In this document: in pieces, positions 28,454 to 40,683 of the stretch
Numbering within the stretch: the first letter of the stretch is position 1
Layout: every line of letters begins with the position of its first letter
NCBI RefSeq assembly: GCF_028713515.1
Contig: NZ_JAQTOD010000002.1
Location: forward strand, 242,501-306,500
Origin: Sulfurimonas sp.
GTDB taxonomy: Bacteria > Campylobacterota > Campylobacteria > Campylobacterales > Sulfurimonadaceae
DNA length: 64,000 bases
Reading direction: 5' to 3'
The notes under the pieces: model-generated
What the model saw: only the letters and a program-made list of their open reading frames with translations
What the model was told of the DNA's origin: nothing
Databases searched by the model: none
Position numbers and translations under genes: made by a program

Positions 28454-29614
28454 TCAAAACGACAAACTCCACTTAAAATAGTATCTATTCTCGAAAGCTC
28501 CAAATTCACTCTCATTTTTACCATTTTGTATCTGAGCGCCTATCATAAATGAGTTGTAATCATTCAGCGTATATTTTAAAGTTGGCGATACAAAGCGTGA
28601 ATTTCTGCCACTAAAACTCTCTATATATAAAATAGAAGCGTCCAAAAAGAGATTAAAGCTATATGAGAGTGTGGCTCCGGTATAAAAATTTGAATAAACA
28701 AGATTTGATAAAATATCAGAGTTTAGATTGGACAAAACCTCATCATATGAAAATTTCTTTGAACTATATAGTGATTCAAGTACTAGAGTTACGCCATTTT
28801 TAAATCCATATTCGGCGCCCACTACCCCTTGATAAAACTCTTTTTTATTCTCTTTATAGCTTGTATCAAAGAGAGTGCTTTTTATATATGCTGCCTCACT
28901 CCTAAGTTCTACCCCAGTATCAGCCAGATTCCCCTCTATCTCATAAGCTATCATTTTAGTTCTATCTGAAGATACAACATTCAAAGCAACATCTGCAAAG
29001 TTTAAAAAACTTTTATATTGCCCTGCATACTTATAACTATGTTCTGAGTTTTGACTTGCTACAAATGTCACATGCGAAGTTTCATCCAAATATCTCACAT
29101 AAGAGAGTGCGCTTACTCCAAAGACCTCATCAGGCTCCAGAGCATAGATATTTTTTGGGTTAAATATATTTGTCGGCGTCCATATTCGCCCTACCCCCAT
29201 AGAGATATTTTGCAAACCGACTACAACCCTATTTTTAGCATCTTCATAGCCTCCGTACGCTCTATAAAGTTTTGCATAAGCTGAACCATTACCGTAATCT
29301 TTAAAATTTGTCTGTGTTTTAAAAGTGGTATCAGAACGAGATCTTTTCAGGTACTCAAAATCATTTGAGTTTACATAAGCACCGCCTAAATAGTTAATGC
29401 CATCGCCGATAACAGTCCCAAAAAAACCATTATCAGTATAATCTGTTTGAACTCTCAATCTATCATAATTGTATATATTGTTTTTTTCTTTTTGAGTCAT
29501 TGAACCGCCAGAGAGTGTAATATTTGTGTTGCTGATTTTATAATCAAAATCCGCATATAACGAGCCAAAGCAGATAATTAGGGCAAAGAATAACCTTTTA
29601 TAGCTTGTGGTCAT
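28454..29614 (-). CDS. predicted outer-membrane beta-barrel of the ABC/LolA-like operon
   Basis: 386 residues with a signal peptide (MTTSYKRLFFALIICFGSLYA). The rest is amphipathic strands ending in YYFKWSLSF, with terminal Phe as in outer-membrane proteins. The segment GLQNISMGVGRIWTPTNIFNPKNIY resembles a turn seen in DUF1302-like barrels (G-R-Q-x-x-x-W-G ... N-P-x-D), some of which accompany LolA-like proteins and transporters. It overlaps the ATPase gene by 17 nt and ends the operon 34587-28454. It may be the outer-membrane exit or acceptor of the system. Family assignment is tentative. Confidence 0.65.
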   Translation of the reverse strand: MTTSYKRLFFALIICFGSLYADFDYKISNTNITLSGGSMTQKEKNNIYNYDRLRVQTDYTDNGFFGTVIGDGINYLGGAYVNSNDFEYLKRSRSDTTFKTQTNFKDYGNGSAYAKLYRAYGGYEDAKNRVVVGLQNISMGVGRIWTPTNIFNPKNIYALEPDEVFGVSALSYVRYLDETSHVTFVASQNSEHSYKYAGQYKSFLNFADVALNVVSSDRTKMIAYEIEGNLADTGVELRSEAAYIKSTLFDTSYKENKKEFYQGVVGAEYGFKNGVTLVLESLYSSKKFSYDEVLSNLNSDILSNLVYSNFYTGATLSYSFNLFLDASILYIESFSGRNSRFVSPTLKYTLNDYNSFMIGAQIQNGKNESEFGAFENRYYFKWSLSF

Positions 29615-30278
29615 TAATCAAAATACCATCATTAAGTGTTATCACTCTTCTAACGCTGTGCATAATCAACTCATCATGAGAGGCAAACAAGATACTTATA
29701 CCCTCTCTCTCATTTAGCTCCCTCATCATGTTCATAAGTATCTGTGAATTGTTAGAATCAAGATTTGCTGTCGGCTCATCAGCTAAAATTATCTTAGGTT
29801 TTGCGGCAACAGCTCTTGCGACTGCAACTCGCTGCTGCTGTCCCCCGCTGAGTGTATTTGGAAGTGACTTTAATTTATTGTCTATCTCCAAAAGTGCTGC
29901 AACCTCTAATACCCTTCTTCTTATCTCCTCATCACTAAAACCACGGAGCCTCATGACAAAACCTATATTCTCCTCAACGCTAAGTACTGGAACCAAGTTA
30001 TATGCTTGAAAAACAAATCCCAATTCATTGAGTCTAAGGGTTGTGCGCGCATCTTCATCGAGCGAGCCTATCTCTGTCTCATCAAGATATATCTCTCCGC
30101 TATCTATACCATCCAGCGCACCTATGGCATTCAAAAGTGTTGTTTTTCCGCAACCTGAAGGACCACTCAAAAGCGTAAACTCCCCAGCCTCTATTGTCAA
30201 GCTTATATCACAAAGCGCATGCACTTCTCTTGGTTCACCTCTGTAAAAATATTTGTTTACATTTTGCAGTTTTATCAT
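29598..30278 (-). CDS. ABC transporter ATP-binding protein, LolD/MacB type
   Basis: 226 residues. Walker [36 protein letters not shown], signature [15 protein letters not shown], Walker B IILADEPTANLD, H-loop FASHD. The ALDGIDSGEIYLDE and YNLVPVLSVEEN segments are typical of the LolD/MacB/FtsE group, which powers FtsX-type permeases by mechanotransmission rather than by moving substrate across the membrane. It overlaps the permease gene upstream by 4 nt. Confidence 0.9.
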   Translation of the reverse strand: MIKLQNVNKYFYRGEPREVHALCDISLTIEAGEFTLLSGPSGCGKTTLLNAIGALDGIDSGEIYLDETEIGSLDEDARTTLRLNELGFVFQAYNLVPVLSVEENIGFVMRLRGFSDEEIRRRVLEVAALLEIDNKLKSLPNTLSGGQQQRVAVARAVAAKPKIILADEPTANLDSNNSQILMNMMRELNEREGISILFASHDELIMHSVRRVITLNDGILINDHKL

Positions 30279-31486
30279 TTCTCAGCCTTAATTACTTCAA
30301 TTGGATTTAGTTTTTTAATTTTTCTAAGCGGAATTATTACACTCAAAAGCGATGCGGTTATAATCGCCACAAAAGTGGTAGTAAAATATGAGATTTTTAT
30401 CGTTCCATGTATTATCGCTTCATAGCCCCACATCTCCAGAGCATCAGAAAATGAGCTTAAATCAACTCCATAATCTCTTAAATATATTAGCAAGATTGCC
30501 CCAAAAATAGCTCCACCAAGATATCCAATAAGCCCGACAAACATAGCCTCTATAAAAATCTGCAATCTTATATATTTATAGTGCATTCCAAGACCAAGCA
30601 TAATACCAAACTCTCTAATTCTGTCAAGAATTGAAACATACATGACGCCAAATATACCAACAAAAACAACACTCATAACTATAAAAAAGGTAATGGAGTT
30701 AAATATAAACATAATATCCTGCATCATCTTCATCATGGGCTGCAGTTCTAGGAAACTCTTAACATCGAGCCCTCCGTATTTTGTCTGAAGTCTGCCTATA
30801 AGCCCTTCATCTTTGCAAACAACTGCTATCTGCGTTGCGTCACCAGAACTCGTACCCAAGAAACGGTGTATATCTTTAATATCTATAAATATTGCGCCAT
30901 CATCAAGCTCGATATTTGTAGTCTGGACTATACCTCTAATCTTCAGCGCAACCGAGTTTATCTCACCCATCACATCTTGTGTGGAAAAAACAACCTTAGA
31001 GCCGATGTGAAGTTTAAGTTTTTTTGCTAGCTCTAGCCCTATGACCGCATCTCCATTTTCTAGTTTTATTTCACCCTCTTTTAGAAACTCGCTAAATCTT
31101 CCAAAGTGATTCTCTTCTTTAATATCTATCCCCTGCATAAAGGAGAATGATGACTTTCGAGCAGTCGAAAGAAGTCCATCGGCACGGACCCTTAGAACAA
31201 CGCTCTTTACACCCTGCATATTTTTCAGTTCATCTTTTATAGCAGAGGCATTTTTAATTCTATATTTCAAATCCTTCTGAACTCTATACTCTTTTGCATA
31301 AAAAGTTATATCACCGCTTCCACTTCTTCTGTTTTTATCAATCATATTCTCAGCCATACCATCATATAGCCCCTGAATACCTAGCATCATGCTCATACTC
31401 ACCGTAATCATGGCCACAACAAGAAGCGTGCGAGCTGGTCTTAAAAATGAGTTTTTCCAAGCCATCTTAACTATTAAACTATACAT
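30275..31486 (-). CDS. FtsX/LolC-type ABC permease (second)
   Basis: About 403 residues from the ATG at 31486, which overlaps the stop of the first permease by 8 nt (ATGTATAG); a TTG reading from 31501 is less likely. Layout: one membrane segment near residue 20-40 (LLVVAMITVSMSMMLGI), a large periplasmic MacB-PCD-like domain (about 45-255), then three membrane segments with the FtsX core (VFVGIFGVMYVSILDRIREFGIMLGLGM). Works as a heterodimer with the next permease. Substrate unknown, probably an envelope lipid or lipoprotein. Confidence 0.85.
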   Translation of the reverse strand: MYSLIVKMAWKNSFLRPARTLLVVAMITVSMSMMLGIQGLYDGMAENMIDKNRRSGSGDITFYAKEYRVQKDLKYRIKNASAIKDELKNMQGVKSVVLRVRADGLLSTARKSSFSFMQGIDIKEENHFGRFSEFLKEGEIKLENGDAVIGLELAKKLKLHIGSKVVFSTQDVMGEINSVALKIRGIVQTTNIELDDGAIFIDIKDIHRFLGTSSGDATQIAVVCKDEGLIGRLQTKYGGLDVKSFLELQPMMKMMQDIMFIFNSITFFIVMSVVFVGIFGVMYVSILDRIREFGIMLGLGMHYKYIRLQIFIEAMFVGLIGYLGGAIFGAILLIYLRDYGVDLSSFSDALEMWGYEAIIHGTIKISYFTTTFVAIITASLLSVIIPLRKIKKLNPIEVIKAEK

Positions 31487-32699
31487 GTCTTGTCGCTTCA
31501 ATCGGTTTAAATGAGTTTATATAGAAGTATGGGTACAAAATACTAAGAAAATTAAGAAGATATATAATCGAAAGATTCCATAAAATAGTAGGGATTGAAA
31601 AACTAAAAGGTATCTCATCCGAAACGACTCCATAATCCCTATACATTTCAGCAATCCCATTGATAACAATAGGATTTATGCTGTAGTAGTAGCAGATACA
31701 AGTGGCTATTGGCGCAGCGATTACTACTGCCAAACTAGAGAGAATAAAAATCTCATAAAAAAGAAGCGCAAAGATATTTTTTTTCGACAGACCTACGCAT
31801 CGCAAAACACCAAACTCTTTTATACGGGAGCTTATATTTATAAAATCGTAAATCATAATAACAAAAAAGATTACCACAAGAAACAAAGAGAGAGAAATAT
31901 ATCCAAAAATATTATCAACTTCCATAGCCTCAACCATAGTGTCCATAAGAGTTTTCCAAGTGAGTGATTCCAAGTTCTTATCATTAATTATTCTTACAAT
32001 CTCGCTATTTACTCTATCTAGGTCATCCAAATTTTTTAACTTTATGTTTATATATGAAGCTCTATTTTTTGCATACATCAGCTCATCAAAATAACTCCTA
32101 GAGAGAAATGAGACACTAGAGTCAAACTCAAATAAACCAGTCTTAAATATACCGCACACCCTAAATATATCGGCCGCAAAAGAGTTATCGCTTGCACCTC
32201 CCACAAAAGCAACCTCATCACCGACATGAAGCTTTAATTTTTTTGCTAGCTCTGAGCCCATATAAATAGAGTTTCCTGAGTTCTCGTCTAAAAACTTACC
32301 CTCTTTTAATGCCAAGTGAAGCGAACTTAAAACCATCTCTTTATTTGGGCTCACTCCGGCAACCATAGAAGCCGCAGAGTGCTCACCATTTGAAAGTAGC
32401 CCATAAGTCTCATATCTTGAGCTAAAAGCTTCAATCGCATCTATTTTGGCAAGCTTCTCCATGATGGATTTTGTATCTTGAATGAGATACTCATTTCCAC
32501 CAATGTCACGATAACCTTTATGATAAATCTCAATGGCGCCCGTATAAATTTTAAGTGAATTTTTCAACATGGAGTTGTGCGAGCCATCTTGCATTGATAT
32601 AAAGAGTATCAAGAGCACCGAAGAGATAAAAGTGAGTATAAATGTTGCAATTGAACGACCTCTATAAAAGAGTATATTTTTAAGTGCAAACTTAAACAT
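31479..32699 (-). CDS. FtsX/LolC-type ABC permease (first)
   Basis: About 406 residues from the ATG at 32699, overlapping the diguanylate cyclase stop (TGATG); a GTG one codon earlier is possible. Same layout as the other permease: N-terminal segment FKFALKNILFYRGRSIATFILTF, periplasmic domain with VAGVSPNKEMVLSSLHLALKEGKF and GSELAKKLKLHVGDEVAFVGG, and FtsX core DFINISSRIKEFGVLRCVGLSKKNIF. The shared GxELAKKLKLHxG motif shows that the two permeases are paralogues. Confidence 0.85.
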   Translation of the reverse strand: MFKFALKNILFYRGRSIATFILTFISSVLLILFISMQDGSHNSMLKNSLKIYTGAIEIYHKGYRDIGGNEYLIQDTKSIMEKLAKIDAIEAFSSRYETYGLLSNGEHSAASMVAGVSPNKEMVLSSLHLALKEGKFLDENSGNSIYMGSELAKKLKLHVGDEVAFVGGASDNSFAADIFRVCGIFKTGLFEFDSSVSFLSRSYFDELMYAKNRASYINIKLKNLDDLDRVNSEIVRIINDKNLESLTWKTLMDTMVEAMEVDNIFGYISLSLFLVVIFFVIMIYDFINISSRIKEFGVLRCVGLSKKNIFALLFYEIFILSSLAVVIAAPIATCICYYYSINPIVINGIAEMYRDYGVVSDEIPFSFSIPTILWNLSIIYLLNFLSILYPYFYINSFKPIEATRHV

Positions 32700-33805
32700 C
32701 ACAAAACCTGAACTTGATTTCTACCATTCTCTTTTGCTCTATAGAGTGCCGTATCAGCTCTATTTATTATGGTTTCTATACAATCTTCTTCTCTATATTG
32801 TGTAACTCCAAAACTGCTTGTTCTATTTTTAATATTTGCAAATTCAAAATTTTCAATTTGTTCTCTAAGATATTCGGCAACTTTTTTTGCTTCACCAACA
32901 TTTGCTTCAGGAAGAATTATCAGAAACTCCTCTCCACCCCATCTACCGACAATATCAGATTTTCTAACTTTATCTTTTAAAATATTAGAAAAATCTCTTA
33001 AAACTGTATCACCAACAAGATGCCCATAGTTGTCATTAACGCTCTTGAAATTATCAATATCCACTAAAATAACAGAAAAAACTCTTTTGTAGCGCTCTGC
33101 TCTATTCATCTCTTCATCTACAAAAAATTCAATCTTAAATCGGTTGTATAATCCAGTTAGTCTATCAGTTGTTGCCAACTTCTCCAACTGCTGATCATTT
33201 AAAAAAATAATTTTATTTGACTTTTCTAAAATAAATGCGCTTAACAAACCAAATGAAAATGCGGACAACATCCATAAAAAGTGCATTAAAAAGAGCTCTT
33301 TTGTCATGGGAAATAAATAATAGCCGATTAAAATAACCAACACAAGTGTAGTCGTTGCGCTCAGTACTGCATATGAGAGACGCAAACCAGACACTATAAA
33401 TATCCAAATAATTATAAGATATATTTCAGAGAAATAGATTGTAGACTCTTTTAAGCTAATAATTAAAAACATATTTCCCAGCGCAGCACCGATGGGTGCC
33501 ACCAAAAATAAATAATTTACTGTCTTGTAAAACTTATTCCAAAAAGTAAGAAGAGTGATAAAAAAAAGAGCAGTCGGTAAAATATATAGATGTAAAAGAG
33601 TCATAACAGGTAAAATTGATGTCGGAGCAACTAGCTTATCTACTTGAGCATAGAGCAAATACAAAATTCCCGTCAACAGAGTTACGGTGCGGATTTGTAT
33701 AATTTTTGAACTCTCATACCATTTATTAAACTGCTTTTTTATCTTCTTTTCTTCAAAATAGATAGGATTCAGATAAGACAAAATACTTTTTTGCCACTCC
33801 AGCAT
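32699..33805 (-). CDS. membrane-bound diguanylate cyclase within the ABC operon
   Basis: About 368 residues from the ATG at 33805 (MLEWQKSIL), which has AAGG 8 nt upstream; earlier starts at 33811 or GTG 33832 fit the ribosome site less well. Five or six membrane segments (about residues 40-205), then a GGDEF domain: DRLTGLYNR, ILVDIDNFKSVNDNYGHLVGDTVL, and GRWGGEEFLIIL. The product-inhibition site RxxD is present (RKSD) five residues before GGEEF, so it is probably active and feedback-controlled. It is translationally coupled to the first permease. Confidence 0.85.
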   Translation of the reverse strand: MLEWQKSILSYLNPIYFEEKKIKKQFNKWYESSKIIQIRTVTLLTGILYLLYAQVDKLVAPTSILPVMTLLHLYILPTALFFITLLTFWNKFYKTVNYLFLVAPIGAALGNMFLIISLKESTIYFSEIYLIIIWIFIVSGLRLSYAVLSATTTLVLVILIGYYLFPMTKELFLMHFLWMLSAFSFGLLSAFILEKSNKIIFLNDQQLEKLATTDRLTGLYNRFKIEFFVDEEMNRAERYKRVFSVILVDIDNFKSVNDNYGHLVGDTVLRDFSNILKDKVRKSDIVGRWGGEEFLIILPEANVGEAKKVAEYLREQIENFEFANIKNRTSSFGVTQYREEDCIETIINRADTALYRAKENGRNQVQVL

Positions 33806-33858
33806 AAACATAACCTTTTTTATTATTAGCACTTAAGCAAATTGTATCAAAAAACAAT

Positions 33859-34587
33859 CTACTTAGAAAATCTCTTTAGAGCATTTTTTGTGAAATACTC
33901 ATCATAAACTCCTGTATCATACTCAATCTCTTCTAACACTATCTCAGTAAATTTATCCAGGGCATCACTTGAACCCACCTTCCAATAGGTGGGAATATAA
34001 TATTTACCTACTTTTTTTACCTTCTCATATATAAAAAATCTAACTTCTTTGTTCTCTTCATCATAAAAAATATCTCTATTTGATGTATATGTTGCCGTAT
34101 CTACATTGGTAATGATTTTTCCCCACACAACCGGAGCACCCAACTTTGGCAGCAGTTCAATTGTTACAACGGTGCCTGCTCTTTTGATAATTCTGGGCTC
34201 ATAATCCTCTACTATAGAACTTTGCCTTACCATATCATCATTTGTTATGTCGCTTCCCATCCATTTTTGTAGCATCATGGATGGTGGAATTTTAATTACT
34301 CTCTCAATTTTTGGTACATACTGCCACATTTGATTATCCAAACTAAGAAATGTTATACCACTATCTTTTGGAGGATAGATAATTTTTACAAAACTTTTCT
34401 TATTTCCCTGTGAAAAGCTTTGCATTCTCATAACTCTTTCATGGCCCATTGATACTACTTTCATGCTAACCTGCATATAGACATTTCGACCTCTGAAATT
34501 TTCATCAAGTTTTTTAATAATATCGTGAGCTTCATCAGCCATCAACTGCGTCATAATTATAGAAATTAAAAAAATAATTTTGTTCAT
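33859..34587 (-). CDS. LolA-like outer membrane lipoprotein-sorting family protein
   Basis: 242 residues with signal peptide (MNKIIFLISIIMTQLMA). Matches the LolA_like (PF17131) pattern: FRGRNVYMQVSMKVVS, KKSFVKIIYPPKDSGITFLSLDNQMWQYVPKIERVIKIPPSMM, WMGSDITNDDMVRQSSIVEDYEP. These proteins have the LolA half-barrel and bind lipid moieties in the periplasm. First gene of the operon with the cyclase, two permeases, ATPase and barrel; 53 nt separate it from the cyclase. It may carry the substrate from the ABC system to the outer membrane. Confidence 0.8.
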   Translation of the reverse strand: MNKIIFLISIIMTQLMADEAHDIIKKLDENFRGRNVYMQVSMKVVSMGHERVMRMQSFSQGNKKSFVKIIYPPKDSGITFLSLDNQMWQYVPKIERVIKIPPSMMLQKWMGSDITNDDMVRQSSIVEDYEPRIIKRAGTVVTIELLPKLGAPVVWGKIITNVDTATYTSNRDIFYDEENKEVRFFIYEKVKKVGKYYIPTYWKVGSSDALDKFTEIVLEEIEYDTGVYDEYFTKNALKRFSK

Positions 34588-34745: not shown

Positions 34746-35156
34746 ATGTCAAAAAAACAGCAATAATTGCTATGGCGGCGCTATTGTTCAATTCTTTATC
34801 GGCGTATGACTTATGCAACTTTTAAACACAGAGCTTAGCGAGGTACAGAGAAATCTTATAGCAAGCGTCAGGTTGCCGTAGAGAGTTCAATAAAACAGTT
34901 TGCAAAAGATGCGCAAGAGCTTTTAGGAAACAAAGAGAGGTTTGCAGCAATGTTGCCGGCGGATAAAAAAGCAAAAGCAAGTGAAGAGGTTATGAGTGCC
35001 CAAATTATAGACCACAATGTTAAAATCATTCTAGATGCTACTGAAAACAAAGATAATAAATCTGGAAGAGTTCGCAGAGAAGCAGCTCAAACAGCTTATA
35101 CATTTATTGAGCATACATGCTTTCGTTGCCATAACATAGTTCGTGACAAACACTAG
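34746..35156 (+). pseudogene. frame-broken small periplasmic c-type cytochrome-like gene
   Basis: Reading across three frames recovers about 135 residues: a signal peptide (KKTAIIAMAALLFNSLSAYD), then MQLLNTELSEVQRNLIAS, then VAVESSIKQFAKDAQELLG to a C-terminal CFRCHN haem motif (CxxCH) and a stop at 35156. Frame breaks lie at the A-tract 34751-34757 (one A short of being in frame with the ATG at 34746), at about 34811-34824, and at about 34861-34880. The last 97 codons are open and could still make a fragment without a signal peptide. Similar to small haem proteins seen in Campylobacterota; exact family uncertain. It lies between the LolA-like operon (divergent) and PBP1A (convergent). Confidence 0.7.
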
Positions 35157-35176: not shown

Positions 35177-35207
35177 AACTCTGCCACAAAAATTATATGG
35201 CAGAGTT
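35177..35207. terminator. strong bidirectional terminator
   Basis: AACTCTGCCA and TGGCAGAGTT form a perfect 10-bp stem with an 11-nt loop; TTT follows on plus. It lies between the broken cytochrome gene and the convergent PBP1A stop and can serve both. Confidence 0.7.
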
Positions 35208-35211
35208 TTTA

Positions 35212-37212
35212 CTAAAAGAGTAGTTTTTCCTCAGTAGTTACCTCACTATCTTTATGAGGCGGTTTTGAAACATCTGTAAAATACTCTCTTGTACCATTAA
35301 ACATCATCTCACTTACACCACTTGGAACATCAAACTTTCTTTGAGTCTGCGGATAGAGCTTTAGTAAGCTTTGGTAGTACATAGCAAAAGCCGGAGCGGA
35401 TATTCGCCCTCCAGTCTCACTTCTGTGCATCGGTGAGTTATCATCATTTCCAAACCAAACAATCGTCTCAATAGTTGGCGAATATCCAGCGAACCAAGCA
35501 TCCACATTGTTATTTGTTGTTCCTGTTTTTCCAGCTAAATCTATCCCAGGAACTCTTGCGTTTGTAGCTGTTCCTTTCTCTACGACATCTTTTAATATTG
35601 TTGTCATTAGATATGCTTGAGATGGAGTTGTTATCTGACGGCTTTTCTCTTTTTTCTCAAACAGAAGCTTACCTTCTCTTTTAATATTTTTAATCAAATT
35701 TGGCTCCATCTGCACACCAGAGTTTGCGAAAGAGGTGTAATACTTTGCAAGTTGAAGCGGCGACAGAGTAATACTTCCAAGAGAGAAAGAGAGATCTTTT
35801 GGGATATTTTGCATATTAAACTTTTTAATCTCATTTTGCATATCTCTAAAACCTATCTCCTCTACAAGAGAGATGGTTGCGAGGTTTCTTGAGTGAACAA
35901 GAGCATCTCTAAGAGTAACAATCCCCTTGAATCCCTTCTCGTAGTTTTTTGGCTGCCATAAAACTTCTTTACCATTTTGCATATAGGTATAAGTTCTAGC
36001 AATATCCGCAACTTCACTAGCACCTGAATACCCAAGATCAAGAGCAACTTGATATATAAATGGTTTAAATGCTGAACCGGCTTGTCTTACGCCTTGTGTT
36101 ATACGGTTAAATGAACTTTTTCTATAATCAACACTACCAACAAGCGCCAAGATATCTCCACTTCTTGAATCCAAGGAAATCATGGCACCATTTAGCTGAG
36201 AAGCGTTTGCGTTTAGCGTTCCGCCCTGACTCTCTTCATCTCCAACATCAGCGATAGTGCCTTTTTTATATCCACCGATTCTATCCAGTGATGCTTTATA
36301 AGCCTTTTGAAGTGACTCAACAGCTGCCTCTTGAAGCCTCATATCTATTGTAGTATAAATCTCATATCCACCAGTTCTTATATCATCAATACCCAACTCT
36401 TTTGCTCTACGAATGACCTCATCAACAATAAAAGGAGCGCCATTTTGACCCAAAGACTCATCATAAACTTTAGGATTTTCTGTAAGTGACTTACTATAAT
36501 CATCTTCCTCAATCCAGCCTAGAGCGTGCAATCTATCAAGCACTCTATTTGCTCTTCCCATAGAAATTTCATAATTTTTTGTTGGCATATAAGTATTCGG
36601 TGATTTTGGTAATCCTACCAAAATAGCTATCTCTTTAGATGTTAACTCTTTTAGCTTTTTATGAAAATATCCATCAGCTGCAGTTTTAATCCCATAATAT
36701 CCATGACCAAAATAGATCTCATTTAGATATCTCTCTAAAATCTCCTCTTTTGTTAAACTAAGTTCTACCTTCATAGAAAAAATAGCCTCTTTAATCTTTC
36801 TAGATAATTTTTTATCTCTTGTTAAAACTCTATTTTTTACCAACTGCTGAGTTATGGTGCTGGCTCCCTCTACCATTTTTCCGGCTGAGACATCTTTTAT
36901 GAGAGCCCTAAAAATTGCATCTAAGTTCACCCCTTGATGTTCAAAAAAAGTTGTATCTTCTACTGCCAAAAGTGCCTCTATGACAGCTGGTGGTATCTCA
37001 CTGAACGGGGCATAATATCTATGCTTCTCTTCGAAAAGATTTGCTATTTTTTCACCATTCTTGTCATATATTCGTGATGAGACCGCTGGGTTGTATGTGA
37101 TGATTCTTGATATATCGTAGTCGTCTTGCTTTAGATAATAAAGCAAGACTAAAAATGGAACTGATATTCCAACCGCTAAAATTGATAGTATTACCTTGGT
37201 GCGTTTTTTCAT
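35212..37212 (-). CDS. pbpA: penicillin-binding protein 1A, bifunctional
   Basis: 666 residues, class A PBP that polymerises and crosslinks peptidoglycan. N-terminal membrane anchor (8-26). Glycosyltransferase domain: EDTTFFEHQGV with the catalytic Glu near residue 89, GASTITQQLVKN, RKIKEAIFSMKVE. Transpeptidase domain: GSAFKPF (SxxK), HSRNLA (SxN) and AGKTGTTNN (KTG). Last gene of the alaS operon, overlapping the ABC ATPase gene by 4 nt. C. jejuni also has pbpA close to alaS and maf. Confidence 0.95.
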   Translation of the reverse strand: MKKRTKVILSILAVGISVPFLVLLYYLKQDDYDISRIITYNPAVSSRIYDKNGEKIANLFEEKHRYYAPFSEIPPAVIEALLAVEDTTFFEHQGVNLDAIFRALIKDVSAGKMVEGASTITQQLVKNRVLTRDKKLSRKIKEAIFSMKVELSLTKEEILERYLNEIYFGHGYYGIKTAADGYFHKKLKELTSKEIAILVGLPKSPNTYMPTKNYEISMGRANRVLDRLHALGWIEEDDYSKSLTENPKVYDESLGQNGAPFIVDEVIRRAKELGIDDIRTGGYEIYTTIDMRLQEAAVESLQKAYKASLDRIGGYKKGTIADVGDEESQGGTLNANASQLNGAMISLDSRSGDILALVGSVDYRKSSFNRITQGVRQAGSAFKPFIYQVALDLGYSGASEVADIARTYTYMQNGKEVLWQPKNYEKGFKGIVTLRDALVHSRNLATISLVEEIGFRDMQNEIKKFNMQNIPKDLSFSLGSITLSPLQLAKYYTSFANSGVQMEPNLIKNIKREGKLLFEKKEKSRQITTPSQAYLMTTILKDVVEKGTATNARVPGIDLAGKTGTTNNNVDAWFAGYSPTIETIVWFGNDDNSPMHRSETGGRISAPAFAMYYQSLLKLYPQTQRKFDVPSGVSEMMFNGTREYFTDVSKPPHKDSEVTTEEKLLF

Positions 37213-37898
37213 ATTCTAAATTTCCTATTTGCAAAATTTGCGTCTATTAAAGTTTTCGTGTACTCATTTTGTGGATTTTGTAAAACTTCGCTCATTTTAC
37301 CACTCTCCATAACCTTGCCACCTTTTATAACACAGATATCTTCACACAAACTCTTAGCTGAATTCATATCATGCGTTACAAAAAGTATTTTAAATCCAAA
37401 CTTAGCTTGAAACTCTTTTAGTAGTTCCAATATAGCGACTCTTGTTTTTGGGTCAAGTGCCGTAGTTGGTTCATCAAGCAAAATCAACTTTGGCTTATGC
37501 TCCAATGCCATGGCAATAATCACTCTTTGAAGCTGTCCACCTGAGAGCTCAGATGGAAATCTCTCCAACAATTCTGCATCTAATCCAACCTGAGCAAAAA
37601 GTTCTTCGACCCTCTGCCGTGGTACAAAAAACTGCTTTTTTATTCTAGTAAGAGGAGATAGTGCCGTAAAAGGATTTTGTGGAACAAAAGATATTGCCCA
37701 CTTTGCCCTTAGTTCAAACTCCGCATCATACTCCATCTCACATCTCATATCACTAGGCAACATCCCTAAAATTGCCTTAAGGGTTAAGCTTTTTCCACTT
37801 CCACTCTGCCCGACAAGTGCGAGCGAAGAGGAGATTTCAAAACTTATATCTACTAAAACTTTCTCATCAATAGTAACGACAAGCTTTGATACTTTCAT
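37209..37898 (-). CDS. ABC transporter ATP-binding protein, peptide/nickel type
   Basis: 229 residues. Walker A GQSGSGKSLTLK, VPQNPFTALSPL (the Q-loop form typical of the oligopeptide/nickel group), signature LSGGQLQRVIIAMAL, Walker B LILLDEPTTALDP, H-loop VTHDMNSAKSLC, and the C-terminal NPQNEYTKTLIDA of that group. No permease or binding protein is nearby, so it is an orphan ATPase or partners with distant genes. Overlaps bioF and pbpA by 4 nt each. Confidence 0.85.
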   Translation of the reverse strand: MKVSKLVVTIDEKVLVDISFEISSSLALVGQSGSGKSLTLKAILGMLPSDMRCEMEYDAEFELRAKWAISFVPQNPFTALSPLTRIKKQFFVPRQRVEELFAQVGLDAELLERFPSELSGGQLQRVIIAMALEHKPKLILLDEPTTALDPKTRVAILELLKEFQAKFGFKILFVTHDMNSAKSLCEDICVIKGGKVMESGKMSEVLQNPQNEYTKTLIDANFANRKFRI

Positions 37899-38989
37899 TC
37901 TCTTATTTTAGCTAAATTTAGAGATAAATCCTTTAGCTCCTCACAACTATTTCCCACTCTTGCAATTAATCTTATAATTGCTTTTTCTACCGTTGGTGGT
38001 CTTATAGCACCAACTGCATATCCCAAACTCTTTAGCTCATCTCTTATATAAATCGCTCTCTCGCTATCGTTAATCAAAATAGGAACAATCAAACCATCAA
38101 CCCTCAAGCCAAACTGCTCAAAAATTATATTTTGTCTTGCTCTTATCTCCTTTTTTAAACTCTGCGCATTTTCTAAAATATACACGAGTGCATTATGAGC
38201 CAGGAGTGTGTCATACAAAGAGAGAGATGTTGCATAAATGATAGGTTTTGCACGGTTTACAAGATACTCAACTATATGTGATGAAGCAAGTATAAAAGCA
38301 CCAAAACTTCCATAAGCTTTTCCAAGAGTTCCCATTTTTATGTAGTTTGGTTTTATCTCAATGTTATAATAATCGAAAGCACCCATAAGTTTTTTTCCAA
38401 CAACCCCACTGCTATGAGCTTCGTCTACTATCAAAATTGCATTATGAGTGTCACAAATCTCAAAAACAGTACCATCTACTAAGTCGCCATCCATTGAGTA
38501 AATTCCCTCAACTGCAACAATTTTTCGTTTTGCGGTTGATGATTTTAGTAAATTCTCTAACTCTTTCATGTCATTATGAGAAAAAAACTTAACACTCATT
38601 CCATTGAGTTTAGATGCCAAAATACCAGAAGCATGGTACTTCTCATCCATAAAAAGTTCATCATCTCTTCTCACTAAAGACTCAATGAGTGCTATGTTTG
38701 CATTAAACCCACTTCCTAAGATAACGCCATCCTCAAAACCATTTGCCGCGCACAAAGCCATCTCAAAATCTTTATGGATTTGATGATAGCCATTTACTAA
38801 AAATGATGCTTTAGAGCTATGTAGTGGGAGTTTTGAGAGAGTGGCGCAAGTAGCTTCATGAAGCTCTTTTTTATGAGCAAGCCCAAGATAGTCGTTAGAT
38901 GCAAAATCCAAGATAGCGTTATCTACAACTTCTCTTTTTCTATATCTATTTGCTTTTTTTAAAGCTTCTATCTCATTCTGATACTGCAT
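37895..38989 (-). CDS. bioF: 8-amino-7-oxononanoate synthase-like aminotransferase
   Basis: 364 residues, alpha-oxoamine synthase family (PLP, fold type I). Marks: LDFASNDYLGLA near residue 27, SSKASFLVNGYHQIHKDFE, LGSGFNANIALIESL, DEKYHASG, VEGIYSMDGDLV, VDEAHSSGVVG, and the PLP lysine in MGTLGKAYGSFGAF. Most likely the first committed biotin-pathway step (pimeloyl thioester plus alanine). No other bio genes are in the window. It overlaps the GGDEF gene stop by 1 nt. Confidence 0.85.
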   Translation of the reverse strand: MQYQNEIEALKKANRYRKREVVDNAILDFASNDYLGLAHKKELHEATCATLSKLPLHSSKASFLVNGYHQIHKDFEMALCAANGFEDGVILGSGFNANIALIESLVRRDDELFMDEKYHASGILASKLNGMSVKFFSHNDMKELENLLKSSTAKRKIVAVEGIYSMDGDLVDGTVFEICDTHNAILIVDEAHSSGVVGKKLMGAFDYYNIEIKPNYIKMGTLGKAYGSFGAFILASSHIVEYLVNRAKPIIYATSLSLYDTLLAHNALVYILENAQSLKKEIRARQNIIFEQFGLRVDGLIVPILINDSERAIYIRDELKSLGYAVGAIRPPTVEKAIIRLIARVGNSCEELKDLSLNLAKIRE

Positions 38990-40683
38990 TATCTCACAAC
39001 TACTCTATTTCGTCCATTATGCTTAGCTTCATAAAGTGCTTCATCTGCTCTTTTAAATGTAAACTCTAAATCTTCACCTTTTTTGTACTCAACAACACCA
39101 AAACTCATAGTTATAGAAGCTATTTTTTTATGCGCTTCTACTTTTATTCTAAGTGAATCAGCTATCTTGTATGCACCTGCCCTGTCTGTATGTGGAAGTA
39201 TCAAAGCAAACTCCTCTCCACCGATTCGGCAGAAAATATCGCTCTCTCTTAAATTTGCACCAATAAGTTTTGAGTACTCTATCAAGACACTATCACCGAC
39301 ATCATGCCCATAAGTGTCATTTATCTTTTTAAAGAAGTCCATATCAAGGATAACAAGCGAGAGCGGATAGAAATATCTGTTTGCCTCAGCAGACTCTTTT
39401 TTTATCTGAATGTTATAGAAATATCTATTTCTTATTTTTGTTAATGGGTCCGTTATAGTTGTCTCTTCAAGTTCTTTGTTGTGCAGTTCATCTTTTGTTA
39501 CATCAGAGAAAACAGCACTGTAGTGAGAATCTTCTTCAGAAATTAGCGATACACAAACAACAAAATAGTATATTTTTTCATCATAAATAAGCTTTACTTT
39601 TGCACTTTTGTTATTTTTTACTAAATATTCTATCCAATTCAATCCATCAATATTTGCACGCAGATAATCATTCTCATCCGTAAAGAAGTCAGAGATTGAT
39701 GAGTGTTTCTGCTTAAATTCTTCAATATCTCTATACCCATAAAAATATTTAAAAAATGCCCTATTTACATCAATCATCCTATTTTTATCAACAATAACTA
39801 CAATATTTGATGATAAATCGATAATATTTTTATAATATTTTTTCTGCTTTTTACTTCTGTGGTAACCCATATAAATAATAACCATAGTTAAAATTAAAAT
39901 CCCAAATACAGAGAGAGCCGACCATTTAAAAATAAAAAAATCTAAACTCTCTTTTAATTTGGAGTTAATATTTTTAGATAATAAAATATTAGCAACAACA
40001 ACATTGTCTATATCCGTAATCTCGTACAATACGATTATCTTGTCATCCTTAATCTCATAAAGTTCATTTGGATATTTTTTTAATTTATCTTTTTTTATTA
40101 CTATCTTAGTATCAATATCAAAGTTTTTTAACTCTTTTATTGTTGAGTTGAGATTAGATATAACCTCGATTGCCCCTATGTTTTGAGCCTCATTAAAGAG
40201 TGGTACAATCTCTCTAATCAAAAGACCATTTAAGTCGCCCGTCACAGAAAAGAGTGGCGCTCGCAACTTTACAGCTATATCCACATCTTGTCTAAATCTA
40301 CCATCATCTTTTATCGATACATTACTCCAACTTTTATATGGAGTCTTTAACTCTTTATCAAAAATTTCTATCCATATATTTCTACAAAGTGCATTTCTAT
40401 CAAACTTTAGAATCAAATCTTCATAATAGTGTTTATCAATATTGGCGTTTAGAATATCATCGTGCATTTTTTTATCATTAGCAATACTAAGAGCAATAGT
40501 TGTAATGGTTTTTTGTTTTTCCGCAATGAGAGAGATTAGTTTTTTTCGCATAAAAAGAGCTTCTGCTTCATAGTTAGTATTTTTTATCTTCGCATGTTCG
40601 TTTGTCAAAAATTCAAAATAAAAAGAACCTGCTAAAACAAAGAGGGCCACTAAACCAAAAATATAATATTTAACACTTTTCAA
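38989..40683 (-). CDS. membrane sensor diguanylate cyclase (Cache-like, PAS, GGDEF)
   Basis: 564 residues. Membrane segment at about 8-27, a periplasmic sensor region (~30-250) with a Cache-like pattern (KLISLIAEKQKTITTIALSIAND, FSVTGDLNGLLIREIVPLFNE), a second membrane segment (~255-273), a PAS-like domain (~285-395; VDVNRAFFKYFYGY) and a GGDEF domain: DPLTKIRNRYFYN, VILDMDFFKKINDTYGHDVGDSVL, CRIGGEEFALILP with an RESD inhibition site. Probably makes cyclic di-GMP in answer to a periplasmic small molecule. Lies in the alaS-maf-bioF-pbpA operon. Confidence 0.85.
   Translation of the reverse strand: MKSVKYYIFGLVALFVLAGSFYFEFLTNEHAKIKNTNYEAEALFMRKKLISLIAEKQKTITTIALSIANDKKMHDDILNANIDKHYYEDLILKFDRNALCRNIWIEIFDKELKTPYKSWSNVSIKDDGRFRQDVDIAVKLRAPLFSVTGDLNGLLIREIVPLFNEAQNIGAIEVISNLNSTIKELKNFDIDTKIVIKKDKLKKYPNELYEIKDDKIIVLYEITDIDNVVVANILLSKNINSKLKESLDFFIFKWSALSVFGILILTMVIIYMGYHRSKKQKKYYKNIIDLSSNIVVIVDKNRMIDVNRAFFKYFYGYRDIEEFKQKHSSISDFFTDENDYLRANIDGLNWIEYLVKNNKSAKVKLIYDEKIYYFVVCVSLISEEDSHYSAVFSDVTKDELHNKELEETTITDPLTKIRNRYFYNIQIKKESAEANRYFYPLSLVILDMDFFKKINDTYGHDVGDSVLIEYSKLIGANLRESDIFCRIGGEEFALILPHTDRAGAYKIADSLRIKVEAHKKIASITMSFGVVEYKKGEDLEFTFKRADEALYEAKHNGRNRVVVR

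Follow-up and report, generated by a model that had tools for sequence, protein, structure and literature searches.

The DNA analysed here, called the window below, is a stretch of 64,000 nucleotides (nt) from Sulfurimonas sp. (contig NZ_JAQTOD010000002.1, positions 242,501 to 306,500), whose source genome measures 2.0 Mb and is 99.97% complete. Six genes on the minus strand of the window are the subject of this study. Read 5' to 3', they encode a LolA-like periplasmic protein, a putative membrane diguanylate cyclase, permease 1, permease 2, an ATP-binding cassette (ABC) ATPase and a predicted outer-membrane barrel. A first-pass annotation, made from the letters and their open reading frames (ORFs), had described them as an envelope-export operon with a built-in cyclase, serving a dedicated lipid or lipoprotein route under local cyclic di-GMP control. 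Five of the genes recur together at other loci, and we refer to these five, without the cyclase, as the cassette.

The locus and its genes

The six ORFs proposed by the first-pass annotation are present on the minus strand at the positions that it had given, nearly all overlapping (Table 1); the barrel gene and the ATPase gene, for example, share 17 nt. Pfam agrees with the gene identities, finding LolA_like, GGDEF, FtsX together with MacB_PCD in both permeases, and ABC_tran. The junction TGATG, in which the cyclase stop and the permease 1 start overlap, can be read directly in the sequence. The overlapping layout holds for most junctions and fails for the one between the LolA-like gene and the cyclase. 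By comparison with its homologues, the most probable start of the cyclase is ATG 33805 and not the GTG that had been listed, which leaves 53 nt from the LolA-like stop to the cyclase.

Table 1. Features of the locus (window positions), with cyclase genes found inside the cassette in other genomes (positions in the named loci); aa, amino acids
Feature	Position	Strand	Remarks
LolA-like periplasmic carrier (PF17131), 242 aa	33859..34587	minus	N-terminus signal-peptide-like; Pfam E 2.5e-40
Gap from LolA-like stop to cyclase start	33806..33858	minus	Holds a promoter-like match TTGATA-17-AATAAT; such matches are not in excess
Putative membrane diguanylate cyclase, 368 aa	32699..33805	minus	Pfam GGDEF E 2.6e-46; start set by homologues
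Permease 1, FtsX/MacB_PCD, predicted LolC/LolE fold	31479..32699	minus	Pfam and structure model; ATG start 32699
Permease 2, FtsX/MacB_PCD	30275..31486	minus	ATG start picked from homologues; TTG at 31501 possible
ABC ATPase, LolD/FtsE/DevA type	29598..30278	minus	Pfam ABC_tran 8e-32; under curated equivalog cut-offs
Predicted outer-membrane 18-strand porin-type barrel, 386 aa	28454..29614	minus	N-terminus signal-peptide-like; structure model
Terminator-like hairpin 3' of pbp1a	35177..35207	minus	Divides upstream pbp1a from the cassette
Cyclase between ATPase and barrel, three Sulfurimonas genomes	L207 7576-8727; L208 1496-2644; L210 15277-16446		Separate entry of a cyclase into the operon

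Carrier, permeases, ATPase and barrel

In Pfam the LolA-like protein matches PF17131 only, not the canonical LolA family PF03548. Its relatives in the PDB are 3buu, 4z48 and 3bk5, which are solved LolA-superfamily proteins. The two permeases share only about 25% sequence identity. A structure model was made for permease 1, which models as a type VII ABC permease with the LolC/LolE fold. Its best match is LolE 9xro_E (Z 30.1 over 371 residues, root-mean-square deviation (rmsd) 9.4), and further matches are 9rld_E (LolE, Z 27.1), LolC 7mdx_A (24.8) and MacB (about 19). Neither permease reaches the curated LolC/E cut-off of TIGR02212 (113.8 and 81.4 bits against 362.45), a cut-off that the genome's own LolF-like permease also misses at 235.9, though it scores far higher than they do. 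The ATPase likewise stays under the curated LolD score of TIGR02211 (184 against 307.75).

The barrel has no family match in Pfam or NCBIfam, and a PHROGs search with the barrel and with the N-terminus of the cyclase gave no match. Its model is a porin-type beta-barrel with a mean predicted local distance difference test (pLDDT) score of 85.8, which agrees with the earlier prediction of an outer-membrane barrel. The model matches Wzi (Z 22.6 over 284 residues, rmsd 3.1), OprD/Occ (about 22), AlgE (about 21) and MOMP of Campylobacter (about 20), at sequence identities of 5-14%. Among its listed structural matches there are 18-strand porin-type barrels and no Omp85 entry, which does not exclude Omp85.

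Separateness from the housekeeping Lol system

The genome has a canonical LolA (PF03548) at C1:643408, which scores 183.6 bits with NF000663 against a cut-off of 120. SecA and a LolC/E-type permease adjoin it, and the best solved relatives of this permease are LolF. A housekeeping LolD could not be singled out in the genome; LolD is likewise unidentified in H. pylori, which requires lolA and lolF and has no lolB (PMC7240156). Since LolA, LolF and SecA are present together elsewhere in the genome, we rejected the idea that the cassette is simply Lol, a possibility that the first-pass annotation had raised against itself. Its proposal of a dedicated route between the membranes, apart from housekeeping Lol, is thus upheld. 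At the housekeeping locus we also observed a GGDEF gene that converges on lolA and overlaps its end (L166 9352-12226).

Distribution and conservation of the cassette

We compared 71 distinct cassette loci from Sulfurimonas and its relatives, some of which end at contig ends. They are spread over Sulfurimonadaceae, Sulfurovaceae and other Campylobacterales, the relatives by name being Sulfurimonas, Sulfurovum and other Campylobacterales. The order LolA-like protein, permease 1, permease 2, ATPase and barrel is kept across the loci, usually with overlaps of a few bases, and the barrel is the final gene throughout. The order of these five genes is conserved far beyond chance. The same order is found in Vibrio campbellii and in Persicobacter sp. 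JZB09 (Bacteroidota). The closest relatives keep the entire neighbourhood of bioF, an ABC ATPase, pbp1a, the cassette and leuA, and because it is kept from bioF to leuA we regard their loci as true orthologues. Across the genus, orthologues of permease 1 are present in 37 of 135 genomes. We found no description of the cassette for Campylobacterota in the literature searched.

The regulators that adjoin the cassette vary, and include TetR (L084, L154 and L286), a two-component pair, LapG-LapD and GGDEF proteins. Because the presence of the cassette is patchy and these regulators are varied, we suggest that it is a conditional exporter and not an essential sorter. Lipid-related neighbours, namely a fatty-acid desaturase and phospholipase A1, are found in some genomes. 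A regulated exporter of lipids or amphiphiles would agree with these neighbours and with the TetR and two-component genes, none of which is universal.

Other genes can enter the cassette. Four genomes (G301, G425, G433 and G437) have inserts between permease 2 and the ATPase. At the G437 locus (L210 5651-14426), an opposite-strand cluster that includes an ABC protein splits the cassette at this junction. In another genome (G089, L085 4754-12235) four permease genes surround one ATPase, which suggests permease duplication.

A cyclase inserted in one lineage

The putative diguanylate cyclase has about six hydrophobic segments and a full-length GGDEF domain (Pfam positions 1-161 of 161). Its active-site motifs are intact, with GGEEF at residue 290 and an RxxD I-site, and the base composition of the gene is typical of the operon. 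On the basis of the TGATG overlap, we argue that it is coupled to permease 1.

At none of the other cassette loci does a GGDEF gene stand between the LolA-like gene and permease 1; in the closest cassette relatives, permease 1 follows the LolA-like stop after 6-11 nt. In a FastTree phylogeny of concatenated cassette proteins, the window's cassette is nested with those of G543, G429, G463 and G439 (support 0.997) and then with that of G262, all of which have no cyclase there. In other Sulfurimonadaceae, genes homologous to the cyclase stand alone at loci elsewhere, and their products are up to 46-47% identical to it in the N-terminal half. Because the position is unique to the window's genome and the relatives have a gap of 6-11 nt, we regard the cyclase as a member of a stand-alone family that was inserted in a single lineage. 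In G453 this gap is occupied by a MazE-PemK pair, and in G508 by an AbiEii pair and further ORFs. Since toxin-antitoxin pairs occupy it in these two relatives, the gap is permissive.

We therefore rejected the cyclase as a conserved member of the operon. A search by gene order, which the first-pass annotation had proposed, recovers the five non-cyclase genes in their order and the cyclase at that position nowhere else, so that "built-in" is not borne out. The annotation had also allowed that a cyclase both lacking in all homologous operons and separately transcribed would speak against its reading. On the first count, nearly all of them do lack it; on the second, the TGATG overlap argues for coupling. 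What the annotation singled out as unusual, the cyclase, is specific to one lineage and possibly an incidental insertion, and it does not define the system.

Cyclic di-GMP genes at other cassette loci

GGDEF or LapD genes are found within the cassette or immediately upstream of it in six independent Campylobacterota lineages, the window's among them, and once in Vibrio. In three Sulfurimonas genomes (G437, G484 and G511) an unrelated cyclase lies between the ATPase and the barrel, in each case 1 nt from the barrel gene. We rejected common descent of these with the window's cyclase because the tree places them apart and they have slight similarity outside the GGDEF domain. The other genes are upstream: a CBS-GGDEF gene at 13 nt in G427, a CHASE-PAS-GGDEF-EAL gene in G254, a GGDEF gene in BB41 and BB14 (with a dCache_3 sensor identified in BB41), LapD in G374, G361 and G386 (with a LapG protease gene identified upstream in G374), and an SBP_bac_3-GGDEF gene at 102 nt in V. 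campbellii. At loci from another genus of the family, a LapG-like protease and a LapD-like receptor lie directly upstream of the cassette (L144 1880-4419; also L145 and L148), and the LapD gene overlaps the LolA-like gene or is less than 80 nt away from it.

Single-linkage families merged all GGDEF proteins into one and were uninformative, and event counts were used instead. With the window excluded, 5 of 36-46 linked families compare with a background of 2-3%, an excess (binomial 0.0007-0.012) in a test that was framed after the pattern had been seen. Around two control ABC operons of the same genus, 7 of 228 and 12 of 241 surrounding genes are GGDEF genes, and 3 of the 20 loci of one of these operons have a same-strand GGDEF gene immediately downstream. 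Thus, the enrichment is weaker than it looks, because control ABC operons also often adjoin GGDEF genes. Neither control has a GGDEF gene within the operon itself, nor on the same strand in the 120 nt upstream of it. Taken as a whole, the evidence for a specific link between the cassette and cyclic di-GMP is no more than suggestive.

Pfam finds no cyclic di-GMP receptor domain in any cassette protein. A search for LapD domains in the window's genome gave no match and is uninformative, since the control genomes likewise gave none; we found no papers on LapD/LapG in Sulfurimonas. There are 29 GGDEF matches in the window's genome. The earlier claim of local cyclic di-GMP control says more than these results support, since the position of the cyclase is unique and GGDEF genes are common beside control ABC operons. 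The idea is kept alive because recruitment of GGDEF genes to the cassette is recurrent.

Surroundings of the cassette

About 600 nt lie between pbp1a and the cassette. This interval holds the remnant of a small cytochrome c-like gene (CxxCH) on the plus strand (34750-35153), scattered over three frames, and an intact version of 142-153 aa is found at the equivalent place in G262 and G439. Just upstream of the cassette (35212-40683, minus strand) there is a second GGDEF gene (PAS-GGDEF, 564 aa), which overlaps bioF, the ABC ATPase gene and pbp1a in a co-oriented run. Several relatives keep this run, including a GGDEF protein.

Discussion

We consider it probable that the locus encodes a five-gene conditional ABC transport cassette for hydrophobic cargo, with an inserted cyclase that is coupled to permease 1 in the window's lineage. 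In the mechanism that we propose, a type VII ABC transporter made of permease 1, permease 2 and two ATPases would use ATP to lift a hydrophobic, membrane-embedded cargo from the inner membrane. The cargo, which is likelier to be a lipid or an amphiphilic small molecule than general lipoproteins, would pass to the periplasmic LolA-like carrier, and the carrier would deliver it to the dedicated 18-strand outer-membrane barrel. We infer the ATP-driven extraction, the handover and the delivery from the folds and from the likenesses to AmeABCD and Borrelia BBJ23-29 described below. The lineage of the window has gained a putative membrane diguanylate cyclase of a stand-alone family, inserted between the carrier gene and permease 1; its gene is co-oriented with permease 1 and probably translationally coupled to it, and the genes are presumably co-transcribed. 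The likeliest effect would be production of the cyclase along with the transporter, which would make cyclic di-GMP output follow operon expression. A less likely possibility is that the cyclase directly controls transport.

Several points weigh against this proposal. The type of cargo that we suggest is conjectural. The fold does not show the direction of transport, because the 18-strand fold is common to uptake porins and exporters. The permeases and the ATPase reach no curated Lol threshold, and in a five-sequence alignment both permeases are 5-6 residues shorter than LolC in the Hook region; because of these two points, the handover to the carrier is proposed with reserve.

The cassette is most likely analogous to two known systems, as a conditional exporter of hydrophobic cargo. 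The BBJ23-BBJ29 cluster of Borrelia, reported in 2026, groups a LolA-like protein, a MacB/LolCDE-type ABC permease and ATPase, and a barrel; its proposed role is to remove a non-polar ligand from the inner membrane and deliver it to the outer membrane, and its cargo is unknown (PMC13078400). It thus shares with the window the clustering of genes for a LolA-like protein, a type VII ABC transporter and an outer-membrane barrel. It differs in having one permease (a proposed homodimer) where the window has two, in having an Omp85-family barrel where the window has a predicted 18-strand porin-type one, in its extra chaperone-like proteins, and in that no cyclase is described in it. A search with the window's permease 1 reaches Borreliella valaisiana. 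On lp28-8 of that species (L284 6004-13023), the related permease of the FtsX type is a few genes away from a gene annotated as encoding a TOMM peptide, and this gene, with its SagB/SagC/YcaO-type enzymes, may be a hint to the cargo of the Borrelia system.

The second system, AmeABCD of Castellaniella defragrans, serves the efflux of apolar monoterpenes and likewise combines an outer-membrane barrel, a LolA-superfamily periplasmic protein and an inner-membrane pump (PMC6394551). The structures 3BUU, 4Z48 and 3BK5, cited for its LolA-superfamily protein AmeB (PMC6394551), are also those matched by the window's carrier. However, its pump is of the resistance-nodulation-division (RND) type and not an ABC transporter. 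Its barrel belongs to DUF1302, with which the window's barrel family compares weakly (125 C-terminal columns aligned, probability 80; no Pfam DUF1302 match). LolCDE-LolA, or LolF-LolA in Campylobacterota (PMC7240156), shares the type VII ABC permease fold and a LolA-superfamily carrier; the window's cassette differs from it in its sub-cut-off scores, in PF17131 in place of PF03548, in its dedicated barrel and in its patchy presence in the genus. The cyclase in turn resembles the stand-alone membrane diguanylate cyclases of Sulfurimonadaceae, as a member of a family whose other members lie outside the transport cassette.

The role of the cyclase can be read in other ways. Neutral insertion into a permissive gap, with no functional tie to the transporter, has an appreciable though minor chance of being right. 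Toxin-antitoxin-type inserts fill the equivalent gap in G453 and G508, four genomes have inserts between permease 2 and the ATPase, and cyclase genes are abundant in the window's genome; yet the insertion is clean, runs in the direction of the operon and overlaps the start codon that follows, all of which goes beyond what a random landing would require, and neither control operon has a GGDEF gene inside it. The reading of the first-pass annotation, in which the cyclase belongs functionally to the transporter and lipid or lipoprotein export is turned on or off by cyclic di-GMP made locally, seems to us unlikely. It draws on the TGATG coupling, the intact GGEEF and RxxD motifs, the independent joinings of GGDEF or LapD genes in six Campylobacterota lineages and in V. 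campbellii, and the excess of linked families over background with the window left out. Against it stand the absence of the cyclase from nearly all cassettes, the frequency of GGDEF neighbours at control ABC operons, the lack of a Pfam receptor domain for cyclic di-GMP in the cassette proteins, and the post hoc nature of the counts. A broader form, to which we give about the same small weight, is that the cassette is a cyclic di-GMP-linked exporter of surface or biofilm material. Lineages would then repeatedly acquire unrelated cyclases or LapG-LapD, and the window's cyclase would be one case, in which output and export are tied at translation.

Two further alternatives concern the transporter. 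A second, specialised Lol system, dedicated to some of the outer-membrane or surface lipoproteins, would explain the LolC/E-like permease fold, the LolD-like ATPase and the LolA-superfamily carrier, and for the similar Borrelia cluster the proposed cargo is lipoproteins or some other non-polar ligand (PMC13078400). We nevertheless find it improbable, given scores far under the curated LolC/E and LolD cut-offs and a genome that already has LolA and LolF. In most genomes no dedicated lipoprotein gene is seen to travel with the cassette, and Lol sorting needs no porin-type barrel. A MacAB-TolC-like drug efflux pump is very improbable. Though MacB_PCD and FtsX domains are present and TetR genes adjoin the cassette at three loci, neither a membrane-fusion (HlyD/MacA) protein nor TolC is among the cassette genes, in the window or in the conserved five-gene set. 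The ATPase is separate from the permeases, a LolA-like carrier takes the place of the adaptor, and an operon with the appearance of TolC-HlyD-ATPase-permease lies elsewhere in the genome (L165).

The cassette is widespread and little studied, and it probably carries hydrophobic molecules from the inner to the outer membrane. How such molecules cross the periplasm is an open question, for which the cassette offers a compact ABC-powered candidate in at least three phyla. Since it is distinct from the essential Lol system, deletion strains are probably obtainable and could be profiled. That cyclic di-GMP genes have repeatedly arrived beside the cassette is a hint that may link this export to a surface lifestyle.

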